A stretch of DNA of 39,041 nt, taken from positions 1 to 39,041 of IMG/VR virus record IMGVR_UViG_3300037117_000188. One strand, written 5' to 3'. Below the pieces are notes generated by a model, which saw nothing but the letters and a program-made list of their open reading frames with translations, did not search any database and was not told the DNA's origin. The DNA is from a virus. The stretch's first letter is position 1; each line of letters opens with the position of its first letter. The position numbers were made by a program, and so were the translations under genes. Below, piece by piece: positions 4,589-20,239 of this stretch.

Positions 4589-4789
4589 ATGAACTTACGA
4601 TATGACCCATATGACTATGAATATCTCAAGAATGAGAAGATTATGGACCACATGGAACAAATTAGGAAAGATGTTTTAGCCAAGTTGTCTAAGTTAGAGA
4701 TTTTGGCATTGGATGATGATTTTGATGAATTTTGTGTAGAATTGAGGAAGTTGAGAGAAGAAGAGAAAATAGAAACTTATTTTGATTAA
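4589..4789 (+). CDS. Hypothetical small acidic protein
   Basis: This 66-aa protein starts at ATG 4589, not GTG 4583, because AAGGAG lies 5-6 nt before the ATG. It is Asp/Glu-rich (LALDDDFDEFCVELRKLREEE), helical, and lies immediately upstream of the ERF gene. The function is unknown. Confidence 0.5.
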   Translation: MNLRYDPYDYEYLKNEKIMDHMEQIRKDVLAKLSKLEILALDDDFDEFCVELRKLREEEKIETYFD

Positions 4790-9818: not shown

Positions 9819-11522
9819 ATGGCAGACGAACTTCCATTAGCCCCCAAACAGCTTGAATTCATTCTAAATTCAACCCGTCATTGGAACATTGCACATGGAT
9901 CAGTTAGATCAGGTAAAACTGTAGGCAGTCTATTCCGTTTCATGCAAGCGGTCTATCATTGTCCAGATAGTCAAATCTTCATGGTTGGCCATTCATCCGA
10001 TACGATTTACCAAAATGCGATCCGTTTAATTCTGGAATCTGACCAATTAGCGATATTTCGTCCATTCTGTGTATGGTATGCAGGAAAGAGACAACTCAAG
10101 TTCATGGATAAATCAATACAAACACTAGGTGCTAAAGACGAGGGAGCAATAGGAAACTTTCAAGGTAAGACATTTTCTTTAGTTTATTGCGATGAAATGA
10201 CTCTCTACCCTGATTCCATCATTGACATGATCGATACTCGTTTATCAAAGAAACATTCAATGGGATTCGCAACAATGAACCCATCATATCCTACACATAA
10301 AATAAAGAAATGGATAGATTTAGCAAAAGCGGGAGATCCCAATTATTATGCATTGCACTTTACTCTTGATGACAATCCTTATGTTGATGAAGATTACAAA
10401 GCTCGAATCAGAAATAGCACTTCCGGCATTTTTTACAAACGTAATTACCTGGGCCTTTGGGTCCTTGCTGAAGGGAGTATTTTTGACTTTTTTGATCGCA
10501 ACCTACACGTTCTTGATCGTCCTCCTTGCGCTGCTGAATATTGGATTGCGGGTATCGACTATGGTTCAGTCAATCCTTTTGCTTGCATTCTCGTTGGCGT
10601 TTCCACAGGAAGATATACACAAACAGGTAAGAAAATGTGGGTTGAAAGAGAATACTTTTGGGACCCAAGTCCTAAGGGAAAAGGAAGACAGAAAGTAAAC
10701 CATGAATTTGCTGAAGATGTAGCAGAATTCCTTGAGCCCTATAACGTTAAACATATTTATATTGATCCCTCAGCTGAACCGTTTCAATTAGAACTACGTC
10801 GCAGAGGATTACACGCAGTTCATGCAAATAATGATGTAGAGAATGGAATACAGATTATGACCTCTGAGATGCAAAGGGGTAATTTATCAGTGCTTAAGTC
10901 ATGTCCCAATACAATCAGAGAAATAGAGAGTTATGTATGGGATAGTAAGGCAGCAGAGAAGGGCTGGGAAGAGCCGATTAAGAAAGATGACCATTGCATT
11001 GTAGGGGATACATTAGTCAAAACTGGGATTGGGGATGTCAAAATAATAGATCTTATAGATGAAATAAAAGGACTTACATATGGATTTGATTCACAAAAAG
11101 GATTCATTCTTACGCCAATAGCTTGGGTAAAAAAAACTAGAGAAAAACAAAAAATATTCAAATTGACTCTAGAAAACGGTAAAACATTGAGAGCAACAGG
11201 CGATCATAAAGTATACACAAGGATTGGATACATTGAAATACAAAATCTCTTGCCAACTGATGAAGTGCTCTGTTATGAAGGCGTTTACTCAAAAGTAAAA
11301 TCAGTTGAAGAAGATGGCATTGAAGATGTCTATTGTTTAAATGTTCCTGAAACAGGAAATTTTGTAGCCAATGGCATTGTAATTTCAAATTGTTTAGATG
11401 CCCTTAGATATGCCATGGCTACTCATAAAGTCAGTACTTATCAACCTTATAAAAATGACAACGACAATGGTTTTGGTGGTCCAAAGAATAAATATGATCC
11501 AACATCAAGGTTTATAAGATGA
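9819..11522 (+). CDS. terL: Terminase large subunit with in-frame mini-intein
   Basis: The 567-aa precursor yields a 435-aa terminase after loss of a 132-aa intein. The ATPase domain shows Walker A GSVRSGKT (residues 27-34) and Walker B LVYCDE (D125, E126). The RNase H-like nuclease shows Asp 247 (AGIDYGS), Asp 316 (YIDPSAEP) and Asp 527 (CLDALRY). It packages DNA into proheads and cuts concatemers. The intein sits between His 392 and Cys 525, directly before the third nuclease Asp, so the nuclease centre cannot assemble until splicing occurs. The RBS AAGGAA precedes the ATG. Confidence 0.95.
   Translation: MADELPLAPKQLEFILNSTRHWNIAHGSVRSGKTVGSLFRFMQAVYHCPDSQIFMVGHSSDTIYQNAIRLILESDQLAIFRPFCVWYAGKRQLKFMDKSIQTLGAKDEGAIGNFQGKTFSLVYCDEMTLYPDSIIDMIDTRLSKKHSMGFATMNPSYPTHKIKKWIDLAKAGDPNYYALHFTLDDNPYVDEDYKARIRNSTSGIFYKRNYLGLWVLAEGSIFDFFDRNLHVLDRPPCAAEYWIAGIDYGSVNPFACILVGVSTGRYTQTGKKMWVEREYFWDPSPKGKGRQKVNHEFAEDVAEFLEPYNVKHIYIDPSAEPFQLELRRRGLHAVHANNDVENGIQIMTSEMQRGNLSVLKSCPNTIREIESYVWDSKAAEKGWEEPIKKDDHCIVGDTLVKTGIGDVKIIDLIDEIKGLTYGFDSQKGFILTPIAWVKKTREKQKIFKLTLENGKTLRATGDHKVYTRIGYIEIQNLLPTDEVLCYEGVYSKVKSVEEDGIEDVYCLNVPETGNFVANGIVISNCLDALRYAMATHKVSTYQPYKNDNDNGFGGPKNKYDPTSRFIR
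10995..11390 (+). mobile_element. Mini-intein in the large terminase (no endonuclease)
   Basis: It covers residues 393-524. Block A is CIVGDTLVKT with the nucleophile Cys. Block B is LRATGDHKVYT with the conserved T-x-x-H. The C-terminal blocks are VYCLNVPETGNFVANG and GIVISN, followed by Cys +1 of the extein. The penultimate residue is Ser instead of the usual His; some natural inteins splice without that His. At 132 aa it is at the lower limit for splicing domains, so it cannot home on its own. Confidence 0.9.
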
Positions 11523-12339: not shown

Positions 12340-12630
12340 AAATTCTGCGGAGGCAAAGCCATTATAAATGGGAATAACGCTCTCGAGCCTAGTCAAGGGA
12401 ACGTTAGACAATGGCTTGACAACCTAAAATGTATGGGTTGTATAAACCCACTCTGATTGACTTGGAAGGCTAAACCGGAAGGCATGCCGACAAGGCGCAA
12501 GCGTAAGCAGCGTGAGAGACTAAGTGAGAGGGCTCAGAAATGAGATGCGATAGTCCGATCCAAACAACGAAAGGTTTGGAGAATGGCAGAAATGACCGTT
12601 CCCAGTATAAAAACTGAGTAACAAAAAGAT
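12340..12630 (+). ncRNA. Group I intron in the portal gene
   Basis: Paired elements: P1 (12333-12339 with 12347-12353), P2 AAGCCATT/AATGGCTT (12356-12363, 12410-12417), P2.1 ACAACC/GGTTGT (12419-12424, 12436-12441), P7 GACTA/TAGTC (12518-12522, 12551-12555), P8 CTCA-GAAA-TGAG (12533-12544), P9 CCAAAC/GTTTGG (12560-12565, 12574-12579). It has no ORF. The 3' end is not certain: by analogy with the capsid introns (TAACA plus five bases ending in G) it would be G12628, while a join at 12631 keeps the frame. Confidence 0.85.
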
Positions 12631-17885: not shown

Positions 17886-18092
17886 ATGGGAATTACAAAT
17901 ACGGGTAATCTTGGTCCAATGATCTTGCAAAGCTTAGCTCCTGCAATGCTCTATGTGCCAACACCCACAATGAATTATATTACAATCTGCGATAAAGTTT
18001 CTATGCCTGCTAATGGCGGAACTACTTGCAGATTTATGCGCCCACATGCGCTACAACCCCCCACCGTTCAATTGGGTAATAGCGGTATCGAT
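17886..18092 (+). CDS. Major capsid protein (N4-gp56 type), exon 1
   Basis: The capsid gene reads as four exons (this one, 18329-18433, 19387-19424, 19621-20239) totalling 969 nt, 322 aa, close to the usual length. Exon 1 encodes 69 residues: SLAPAMLYVPTPTMNYITI, then MPANGGTTCRFMRPHALQPP, which matches the start of N4-gp56-family HK97-fold coat proteins. It ends in ATCGAT, which pairs with GTCGAT at 18105-18110 (P1, U-G at the cut). Unspliced, translation would run into the intron and stop after 88 residues. Confidence 0.85.
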
Positions 18093-18328
18093 AAACCTCG
18101 GCGTGTCGATGTAAAACCGATGATGATTGACTTGGAACTCCTGGCTGCATAAACAGAGGACAACAAGGGGCAAGCAAGGAAACTGTGCAGCCTGAACGAC
18201 TAAGTTCATTGGACGCGAAAGCGTATGCGATAGTCTGATCCGTGACTATATAAATGAAATCACGGAGGGAGATCCGAAGAGGTTTCCCCGCCTTGTAGCT
18301 GCAAGGGGTCAATAAAAGTAACAGAGTG
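18093..18328 (+). ncRNA. Group I intron 1 of the capsid gene (236 nt, no ORF)
   Basis: P1 is 18087-18092 with 18105-18110. P10 pairs the guide flank CGGCG with CGCCG of exon 2. P7 is GACTA/TAGTC (18198-18202, 18231-18235). P8 is ACGC-GAAA-GCGT (18213-18224). P9 is CCGTGA/TCACGG (18240-18245, 18260-18265). The 3' end is TAACA plus GAGTG. It is unusually compact: P1 is followed almost at once by the core, with no P2 domain. Confidence 0.85.
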
Positions 18329-18433
18329 CCGCCGGCACAAGTGCCCCAGCGAGATATAATCGATGGCGCAAATGGCTTTTTTTGGAACTGGGTGTATCAT
18401 CAATAGCAGGTGATCCTTCAGGATCAAGAGGGT
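18329..18433 (+). CDS. Major capsid protein, exon 2 (contains compensating frameshifts)
   Basis: Exon 2 is 105 nt (35 codons). It opens in frame with PPAQVPQRDIID and closes in frame with QVILQDQEG, both fitting the N4-gp56 family. Between them the family-like sequence AQMAFFGTGCIIN is read in the +1 frame (from 18366), and the exon frame there has a TAG at 18404. One extra base near 18365 and one missing base near 18404 would explain this exactly. It may be an assembly error or a real lesion. Total length is unchanged. Confidence 0.6.
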
Positions 18434-19386
18434 TTTATACTTGCAGCATAATGTTGGTGGGTCTATAATATAACAAACCGAAAGGAGGTTATATGAAAGA
18501 TCCTGAAGAAAAGGAAATATTAGCTTACATAGCTGGTTTAATAGATGGCGATGGAAATATAGGAATGAGAATTGGACCAAGAGGAAAATTATGTCCTTTG
18601 ATTCAACTTCACAATTCTTTTAAACAAACGCCTGTTTATCTAAATAAATTGTTTGGTGGAACTGTAGCTTTTGATAAACCAAAAAAAGAAGGATATCGAG
18701 TGATTTGGAAATGGATGCTTCAAGGAGAAGAAGGATGCCAAAACTTTCTAAATAAAGTGATGGAATTCTTGGTTTTGAAGAGAGATTCCGCTGTTCATTT
18801 GATGGAATTCTTATGTAAACGTAATGAGGGAAAAGAATATTTTAAAATATCAAAAGATTTAAATTTAAATAGAAAAATAGGTCCTTTTGATATTGATAAT
18901 ATCGATAGAAAAACCAGCACTTGCCCTTATTTTTGGGCATATGTATCAGGAATTATGGATACAGATGGTTCATTTTCAATTGAAAGATCAGTTCGTAAAG
19001 CTGGACAAAATAGACAATTAAATGATTTGGTGAAGTTTAGACCAAAAATTATATTGTCTATGGTTAGTGAAAGATCTATTAGGCATATCTTGTCAAATTG
19101 TGAATATGGTGGTTTATGTATTGTAAAAGCCAGTTGTGCTTTAAGGGGATCGGCTTTTAGATTTTCGATCCAATCAAGATCGGCTGCCATTGAATTCTTG
19201 AAAAGATGTATTCCTTATCTTCAAATAAAGGCAATTCAAGCGGTGAAAATCTTGAATTTTTGTAGAAATTATAATCCAACAAATGGATTAGCAAGGATTC
19301 CAGAAGAAGAAAAAGAATACCGTGAGAAGTGCTATAAAGAAATAGTTATGCTTAATAACACGCCCTCTTAGGCTAGAATAGAATTG
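18434..19386 (+). mobile_element. Insertion 2 of the capsid gene: endonuclease-bearing group I-type intron without a visible core
   Basis: The 953-nt insertion carries a LAGLIDADG gene. Near its 3' end TAACAC-GCCCTCTT (19356-19369) pairs with both exons: GCCCTCTT with AAGAGGGT ending exon 2 (U-G at the cut), TAACAC with GTGTTA opening exon 3. The last base is G, as in group I introns. Only 17 nt separate this guide from the 3' end, so P3-P9 cannot fit there, and I find no core elsewhere in it. Splicing, if it occurs, may use the adjacent intron's ribozyme. Confidence 0.65.
18493..19371 (+). CDS. LAGLIDADG homing endonuclease
   Basis: This 292-aa protein has two LAGLIDADG helices, YIAGLIDGDGN (about residues 12-22) and YVSGIMDTDGS (about 149-159), each with the catalytic Asp, so it is a monomeric two-motif enzyme. 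The RBS AAAGGAGG is strong and independent of the capsid gene. Such enzymes cut intronless alleles at the insertion site; some also act as maturases. Its last codons overlap the guide sequence of the insertion (19356-19369), so protein and RNA guide are constrained together. Confidence 0.92.
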   Translation: MKDPEEKEILAYIAGLIDGDGNIGMRIGPRGKLCPLIQLHNSFKQTPVYLNKLFGGTVAFDKPKKEGYRVIWKWMLQGEEGCQNFLNKVMEFLVLKRDSAVHLMEFLCKRNEGKEYFKISKDLNLNRKIGPFDIDNIDRKTSTCPYFWAYVSGIMDTDGSFSIERSVRKAGQNRQLNDLVKFRPKIILSMVSERSIRHILSNCEYGGLCIVKASCALRGSAFRFSIQSRSAAIEFLKRCIPYLQIKAIQAVKILNFCRNYNPTNGLARIPEEEKEYREKCYKEIVMLNNTPS

Positions 19387-19424
19387 GTGTTAGCTTGGGT
19401 ATCCGAGCGTCTAGCCGTGGCCAT
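19387..19424 (+). CDS. Major capsid protein, exon 3 (38-nt micro-exon)
   Basis: It encodes VLAWVSERLAVA plus two bases of the next codon. In the coat family this helix sits between the QDQEG-type loop (exon 2) and the RQAEDLILRDY helix (exon 4), so the protein needs it. Both junctions are in frame and both are supported by guide pairing: GTGTTA with TAACAC on the left, and GTGGCCAT with GTGGCCAT (19433-19440) on the right. Confidence 0.75.
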
Positions 19425-19620
19425 CTTGACAAGTGGCCATTAAACCTTTGGTAATTGACTTGGAGGCCCGACGGGGTAACAAGGCGCAAGTTTAAATACA
19501 GCGTGAGAGACTAAACCCAGAGGACGCGAAAGCGTATGTGATAGTCCGATCTGCAACTATAAATAAAATTGCAGAGAGAAGCAGAAATGACTTCTCCCCA
19601 CTATGTGGAGTAACAATTTG
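19425..19620 (+). ncRNA. Group I intron 3 of the capsid gene (196 nt, no ORF)
   Basis: P1 is 19417-19424 with 19433-19440, U-G at the cut. P10 is CTTGAC (19425-19430) with GTCAAG of exon 4 (19623-19628). P7 is GACTA/TAGTC (19509-19513, 19542-19546). P8 is ACGC-GAAA-GCGT (19524-19535). P9 is CTGCAA/TTGCAG (19551-19556, 19569-19574). The 3' end is TAACA plus ATTTG. Its P7-P8 block is nearly identical to intron 1, so the two are recent relatives. At 196 nt it is near the minimum for a working group I intron. Confidence 0.87.
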
Positions 19621-20239
19621 GCGTCAAGCAGAAGATTTGATCCTTAGGGATTACGTTGTATCTGCCGCATCTGAAATTTCAGCTGGCGGTGGTTCCAATG
19701 GAGATAACCCAACAAATCTTGGAGTCACTGACTTCAGTTTGGTTGCGGCAACTCTTGATACCAACAATGCCTACAAATTTATGTCAGGTATTGAAGGAAT
19801 GGATAGATTTGGAACTGGTCCAGTACGTTCATCCTATTTCATGCTCAGTTCAACTGAACTTCAGCCTGATTTTGATGGATTAATGGGAAGCGGATTTTTG
19901 TCTCAATGGAATTATCCAAGTAATTCGTCAGCATTGCCTTCTGAATATGGAAACGTTTTTAACATTCGTATTCTGACAAGTTCTGAAGCTCCCGTTGCAC
20001 GTGGAACATCAGCTAAAGGTAATGACGTTTATTACAATACTGTAGTTGGAAAACAAGCGGTAACTCACATAAATCAAGATGGTTTTTCCATGAATTTGAT
20101 TTATCGTGATCCATACTATTCAGGAATGCTTGCACAGAACGCAACTTTGGCAGTTAAATTTGCCCAAGCTCAAGCGATCACGCAGGATACCGCCATCAGA
20201 AACCTCTTAAGCACACGCTTAAGCAACCTGGGGGTATAA
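19621..20239 (+). CDS. Major capsid protein, exon 4
   Basis: It encodes the C-terminal 205 residues: RQAEDLILRDYVVSAAS, a DRFGTGPVRSSYFMLSSTEL segment, and the closing KFAQAQAITQDTAIRNLLST, all fitting the N4-gp56 coat fold (spine helix, P-domain and A-domain strands). An in-frame reading from 19538 is intron sequence, not a real start. The stop TAA at 20237-20239 precedes the next ATG by one base. Confidence 0.88.

Follow-up and report, generated by a model that had tools for sequence, protein, structure and literature searches.

A capsid gene interrupted by three insertions

The DNA analysed here (the window; 39,041 nucleotides, IMG/VR record IMGVR_UViG_3300037117_000188) is a 39-kb tailed-phage record that encodes a P22-type portal protein and a terminase with an intein. 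Its capsid gene (MCP) occupies positions 17886-20239 and is interrupted by three insertions, the second of which carries the splice-site guide of a group I intron and no catalytic core. All coordinates are those of the window and all features lie on its plus strand.

We located the insertions with a purpose-written spliced-alignment program that used intronless relatives. A protein search with the C-terminal capsid exon as the query retrieved 80 relatives, and because many of these genes are uninterrupted the exons could be fixed by protein alignment. The insertions are at 18093-18328 (codon 70; intron 1), 18434-19386 (codon 104/105; insertion 2) and 19425-19620 (codon 117; intron 3), with exon 1 at 17886-18092 and exon 4 at 19621-20239. 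The 38-nt piece between insertion 2 and intron 3 (19387-19424) encodes VLAWVSERLAVAM (VLAWVSERLAVA(M)), identical to the protein of the intronless relatives, which read ...QDQEG|VLAWVSERLAVAM|RQAED.... This alignment fixes the piece and both its junctions and, on that basis, it is a real exon. The residues E-G-V-L are kept only by the junctions 18433/19387 or 18432/19386, and the group I rule for intron ends (U|...G|) is obeyed only by 18433/19387. Insertion 2 thereby sits exactly at the capsid codon pair G|V.

Insertion 2 has a guide and no catalytic core

The guide of insertion 2 has two contiguous parts. The internal guide sequence (IGS), GCCCTCTT at 19362-19369, forms a P1 helix of 8 bp with the 5' exon strand AAGAGGGT (18426-18433) and places a U18433.G19362 pair at the cut. 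The P10 part, TAACAC at 19356-19361, forms 6 bp with GTGTTA at 19387-19392, a pairing that covaries in relatives (TAATAC/GTATTA and TGAGTAC/GTACTTG). The last nucleotide of the insertion is G (19386), so that the P1 with its U.G pair, the P10 and the terminal G of group I introns are all present. The guide was better than 1000 shuffles (p ~0.001, the lowest attainable value). A model that saw only the letters of this DNA (the sequence-only reading) had proposed these coordinates and pairings and had claimed that the exon ends agree independently with the capsid alignment. Both proposals were confirmed, the latter by the intronless relatives.

The same reading had found no P3-P9 core in the insertion and had suggested an Infernal search. 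We searched 18434-19386 on its own against Rfam and obtained nothing relevant. The Rfam group I model RF00028 also gave no match at E ≤ 10 on 19387-19660, which contains intron 3. Given the covarying pseudoknot described below, we judged this miss to be a limit of model sensitivity, and group I chemistry is not defined by a match in a database. Because RF00028 misses even the proven cores, the Rfam negative alone means little; we dropped this model as a core test and built a dedicated covariance model, R1, from 30 introns of the family. Run over the whole window with filters off, R1 matched exactly three cores (19442-19549, 18114-18238 and 12444-12558) and none in insertion 2, which agrees with the Rfam result and with homologues of only 30 nt.

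The first of these cores (P3-P8; 116 bits, E 1e-25) belongs to intron 3 and is the proposed splicer of both introns. Intron 3 is a full group I intron with its own guide: its IGS (19433-19440) pairs with the exon strand GTGGCCAT (19417-19424), and CTTGAC at 19425-19430 forms P10 with GTCAAG at 19623-19628. The second core (P3-P8; 101 bits, E 4e-22) lies in intron 1, also a full group I intron, with the IGS GTCGAT(GT) at 18105-18112. The third is that of a portal-gene intron (12426-12628) that stands alone. Across 39 introns the P3-P4-P5-P6-P7-P8-P9 fold with its P3/P7 pseudoknot covaries (34 pairs, 95% of cells paired), 27 of the 34 pairs having double changes and the covariation reaching 0.63 versus 0.19. 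It is because of this fold that we class the neighbouring introns as group I.

Insertion 2 also contains an open reading frame for a LAGLIDADG homing endonuclease (18493-19371; Pfam PF00961, E 7e-6), the last codons of which contain the guide.

Core-less mini-introns recur upstream of full introns

Among 105 unique related capsid genes, from a family of uncultured phages, we found 46 core-less introns, henceforth mini-introns, distributed over 41 genes. They occupy codons 88 (FG|T), 92, 104 (the site in the window) and 114, and most are only 30-93 nt long. At codon 104 the mini-intron is 33 nt in L044 and 30 nt in L190 and L211, and in eleven genes including that of the window it is ~950-990 nt and includes an endonuclease. 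These versions at a single site indicate, by comparison, that the window insertion is a mini-intron of the 33-nt kind whose P1 loop holds a LAGLIDADG gene.

All 46 capsid mini-introns have U|...G| ends, every one has a significant guide (p ≤ 0.003 against shuffles), and in every case a full group I intron comes next. Five genes have two mini-introns and two cores, in the order mini-core-mini-core. Since loci fetched with mini-intron patterns bias a Fisher test on the full set, we counted the association in the 80 genes found by protein search only. A following core was present in 16 out of 16 mini-bearing genes, and a core from codon 88 onward in 5 of the 64 genes without a mini-intron.

The guides track synonymous changes in the exons. 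At codon 88 all four Watson-Crick pairs are seen at the wobble position of Thr (ACN), with guides CCAGT, CCTGT, CCGGT and CCCGT, and Phe codons TTC and TTT are matched by GCCGAA and GCCAAA. At codon 104, the guides read CAC, TAC and GTAC where the exon starts with GTG, GTA and GTAC. The guides have 134 double-change cells versus 51 ± 5 in shuffles.

The class extends beyond the capsid gene. Three further mini-introns lie in the portal gene, at codons 16-20 (55 nt in L006, 39 nt in L098 and 30 nt in L039), each with a guide, a following core and the anchor described below, and an independent collection of genome bins supplied four additional cases. Short portal insertions in L208 and L053 were considered and excluded, as they have no guide, a long hairpin and no following core. 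These insertions, of 48 and 50 nt (L208 at ~4729-4776 on the strand as analysed, L053 at 2171-2220), start with CGGGT, form a strong hairpin, end in AAAA runs and contain in-frame stops.

The tail of the mini-intron is tied to the next core

Between the guide and the terminal G, each mini-intron has a short tail that in most cases pairs with an exon segment abutting the P1 strand of the next full intron. We refer to this helix as the anchor. In the window, GGCTAGA (19371-19377) pairs with TCTAGCC (19410-19416), which abuts the P1 of intron 3; the centroid fold contains both the anchor and this P1. The variants covary as TCTAGCC/GGCTAGA, TCTCGCC/GGCGAGA and ACTCGCC/GGCGAGT.

The position of the exon partner varies relative to the mini-intron and shifts with the location of the following core. 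Tails at codon 104 pair with TCTAGCC if the core is at codon 117 and with TGCGCCAAGC if it is at 123. At codon 88 they pair with ATAATCAAC (core at 97), CAAGTCAT (core at 102) or, 85 nt away, TGAGACAAG (core at 123). The partner lies 0-1 nt from the following P1 strand in 30 of the 46 mini-introns, and the complete anchor layout is found in 35 out of 46, versus 2.6 with shuffled tails. Compared with mini-introns at the same site that precede another core, the partner at a mini-intron's own core scored above the mean of the other cores in 43 out of 43 (p = 6e-9). Swapping exon variants of the partner gave 178 comparisons in which a mini-intron's own was better and 38 in which it was worse. Unconstrained folding recovered the mini-intron P1, the anchor and the core P1 together in 26 of the 29 cases free of a homing endonuclease gene. 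A GACTTG motif in some tails had suggested a relic of P3; we rejected this because the motif pairs with exon CAAGTC beside the core at codon 102.

The sequence-only reading had noticed the stem GGCTAGA/TCTAGCC and had placed it as a P2, in an order said to match the portal intron. The helix is real and covaries in relatives, and we reinterpret it as the anchor between mini-intron tail and exon. The order is not that of the portal intron, in which, as in the short cores of the family, P1 runs directly into P3 with no P2 or P2.1. The P2.1-like position given to 19417-19440 held up, as the P1 hairpin of intron 3 itself sits there.

Readthrough of unspliced introns ends in degron-like tails

A ribosome that continued from the preceding exon into the unspliced mini-intron would meet the stop right after -AA or -VA in 44 of the 46 cases (for example NEYALLAAA in L044, LVA in L052 and, in the window, FILAA). 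In the window, exon 2 reads into insertion 2 as FILAA* (18434-18451) and exon 1 reads into intron 1 to end in ...DLELLAA* (18135-18152). Such ends were absent when mini-introns were read in the other two frames (0/92), occurred once in 256 in a wrong-frame control and make up 0.27% of stops in the background. They are also found in stand-alone cores (20/25 at codons 61-125 and 11/11 from codon 144 onward) and in none of the 12 introns within the first 34 codons. From these sequences, the ssrA-like tails may mark long, incomplete capsid products for proteolysis of the ClpXP type. In group I introns, an in-frame stop near the 5' splice site is already known (PMC3984707). We found no description of an intron-encoded degron in the literature searched, which included few subscription papers or preprints.

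Insertions of one to four nucleotides and frame changes in exon 2

The window has a single extra G at codon 82 (18365), behind the motif ATCGAT, a candidate one-nucleotide excised segment for the guide of intron 1. Extra nucleotides at this codon (1, 2 or 4) occur in all nine genes with a codon-70 intron (the window, L009, L038, L082, L087, L088, L204, L205 and L219) and in no others of the 105. They read G; TG or AG; TTAG or TAAG, always behind ATCGAT and with a terminal G. ATCGAT is the P1 target at the codon-70 intron's own 5' splice site, so that one IGS fits both sites, and a P10 of 4 bp is possible at each insertion. Engineered trans-excision-splicing removes single nucleotides under the same substrate rule (PMC6155759), and our analysis marks the codon-82 insertions as candidate natural substrates of such a reaction. 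A collection-wide scan for the codon-82 pattern also matched L232 and seven more loci, which proved to be unrelated genes.

Separately, codon 95 lacks one G in the window (18404/18405; AAT-AGCAG for AATGAGCAG) and in L009, L038, L205 and L221. These are exactly the genes with the single G at codon 82, four of which (the window, L009, L038 and L205) are among the nine above. Because both resulting frames reach a stop, some further RNA or translation event seems to be needed, and we found no conserved guide among the four genes that would direct a second event at this codon. Sequencing error was ruled out for the +1 and -1 frame changes of exon 2, as they recur in L009, L038, L205 and the separately deposited L221. 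The latter (PLLX01000034.1) is a 39,051-base contig in a Bacteroidales metagenome-assembled genome (MAG) bin, has introns of the window's three lengths and probably represents the same phage. We dropped host assignment from genome bins, as MAG labels disagree and relatives were binned in unrelated phyla.

A group I core may excise the upstream intron

We consider it likely, from the comparisons above, that insertion 2 is a core-less intron with its own guide that is excised by the core of intron 3 in cis, through the anchor and by sequential splicing. In this model, insertion 2 would be a non-autonomous group I intron consisting of a guide (P1 and P10), an anchoring tail and a terminal G, with no ribozyme. 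In the precursor, the mini-intron P1, the anchor and the P1 hairpin of intron 3 would stack as P1-P2-P2.1 before P3-P9 of intron 3, with the mini-intron 3' splice site in the anchor's loop. The core would dock the mini-intron P1, cut after U18433 and join U18433 to G19387, releasing insertion 2. Since the anchor strand would be lost with insertion 2, the P1 of intron 3 would then be free to dock, and the core would excise its own intron.

The guide, the exon boundaries, the missing core, the presence of the next core, the anchor pairing and its dependence on the following core can all be read from the sequences; from these we infer the chemistry, which reaction comes first and the action of the core in cis. 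The proposal of the sequence-only reading that one core serves two guides gains comparative support from 46 capsid and three portal cases with a guide and a following intron, and the putative excision by a core of a segment outside its own intron has strong comparative support as well. A broader view, that one group I ribozyme serves its own intron, the upstream mini-intron and the 1-4-nt insertions at codon 82, and that unspliced products carry an ssrA-like tag, is in our estimation only slightly favoured.

Several points weigh against this model. The evidence comes from sequence comparison, relatedness among the genes deprives the counts of independence, and some of the loci entered the set through searches with mini-intron patterns. 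Shuffles correct only in part for the choice of guide and anchor positions by best pairing. Anchors are weak in L190 and L217 at codon 104, in L061 and in the core-145 cases. Core introns and mini-introns could be co-inherited for non-functional reasons. The degron-like ends are rare in full introns that follow a mini-intron (5/46), which means that the stage with the mini-intron out and the core still in is short-lived or that the order is different.

An alternative is that mini-introns are spliced in trans by any excised phage group I ribozyme and not specifically by the next intron in the same molecule. The scarcity of degrons in cores after mini-introns would fit if the core left first, the codon-82 insertions lie downstream of an intron whose guide fits them, and engineered group I ribozymes can remove, in trans, both single nucleotides and introns of 100 nt (PMC6155759; PMC4094466). 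However, the tail fits the exon next to the core that follows, mini-introns are always upstream of a core in the same gene, and genes with two mini-introns have two alternating cores, so we regard the trans route as unlikely. It is still less probable that the mini-introns are not spliced, and that mini-intron and core form a regulatory or selfish element with capsid produced from a different copy of the gene or not produced at all. Full-length protein would indeed be blocked by the in-frame stops and their degron-like tails, but the exon codons at the insertions are conserved as protein, the guide covaries at synonymous positions, and the capsid gene is essential, with no second copy seen in the window.

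The size of the mini-introns (~30-93 nt) and their early in-frame stop recall the 50-nt translational bypass of T4 gene 60, in which the ribosome skips the inserted stretch. No matched codons for take-off and landing are present, however, since exons end in T and mini-introns in G in 46/46, and bypassing leaves the guide/exon covariation, the 950-nt versions and the constant following core unexplained. We rejected it on codon matching and give it very little credence. Least credible of all is that insertion 2 is an ordinary group I intron with a degenerate or unrecognised core. Although RF00028 also fails to detect the genuine cores of the window, R1 with filters off finds nothing, and homologous mini-introns are only 30-48 nt long; the 30-nt homologues already refute a hidden core.

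Relation to known introns and significance

Insertion 2 resembles ordinary group I introns in its P1 with U.G, its P10, its terminal G, the endonuclease gene in a loop and the in-frame stop (PMC3984707), and differs in having no P3-P9 core and relatives of 30-93 nt when free of the endonuclease gene. Excision of one intron by a neighbour's ribozyme is so far known only from engineered ribozymes. In spliceozymes (PMC4094466) and trans-excision-splicing (PMC6155759), a core excises a separate segment of 1 to ~100 nt between U and G and joins the flanks, aided by an extra guide duplex. Those systems are designed and act in trans, whereas the phage mini-introns are natural, lie beside the core and have the guide within the excised segment. 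Tandem group I introns in phage Twort orf142 and in Coxiella (cited in PMC10136302) show exon skipping, which likewise combines elements of two neighbouring introns across a short exon. In those examples the two introns are each complete and the exon does not survive splicing, whereas here one intron is core-less and the exon is kept.

The portal intron and the capsid introns have as a neighbour a terminase large-subunit gene with an intein (9819-11522; Pfam PF14890). Organelle degenerate group II and group III introns, including twintrons, have lost catalytic parts and depend on others. The mini-introns would share this dependence and differ in chemistry, that of the organelle introns being group II; we found no group I counterpart in the literature searched, which covered few subscription papers or preprints.

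Group I introns are usually held to carry their own ribozyme. If the broader view above is true, non-autonomous group I introns would form a class, and trans-excision-splicing would have its first natural example. Recurrent introns down to 30 nt with only a guide, an anchor and a terminal G would be the natural counterpart of the spliceozyme. Intron surveys based on core models miss such introns and mis-call essential genes as broken, and insertion 2 shows a way for an endonuclease to spread with an intron that can do without its own ribozyme. The system would also be a directly testable model of self-splicing introns becoming dependent on a shared catalytic RNA, a step often invoked for the origin of spliceosomal introns.
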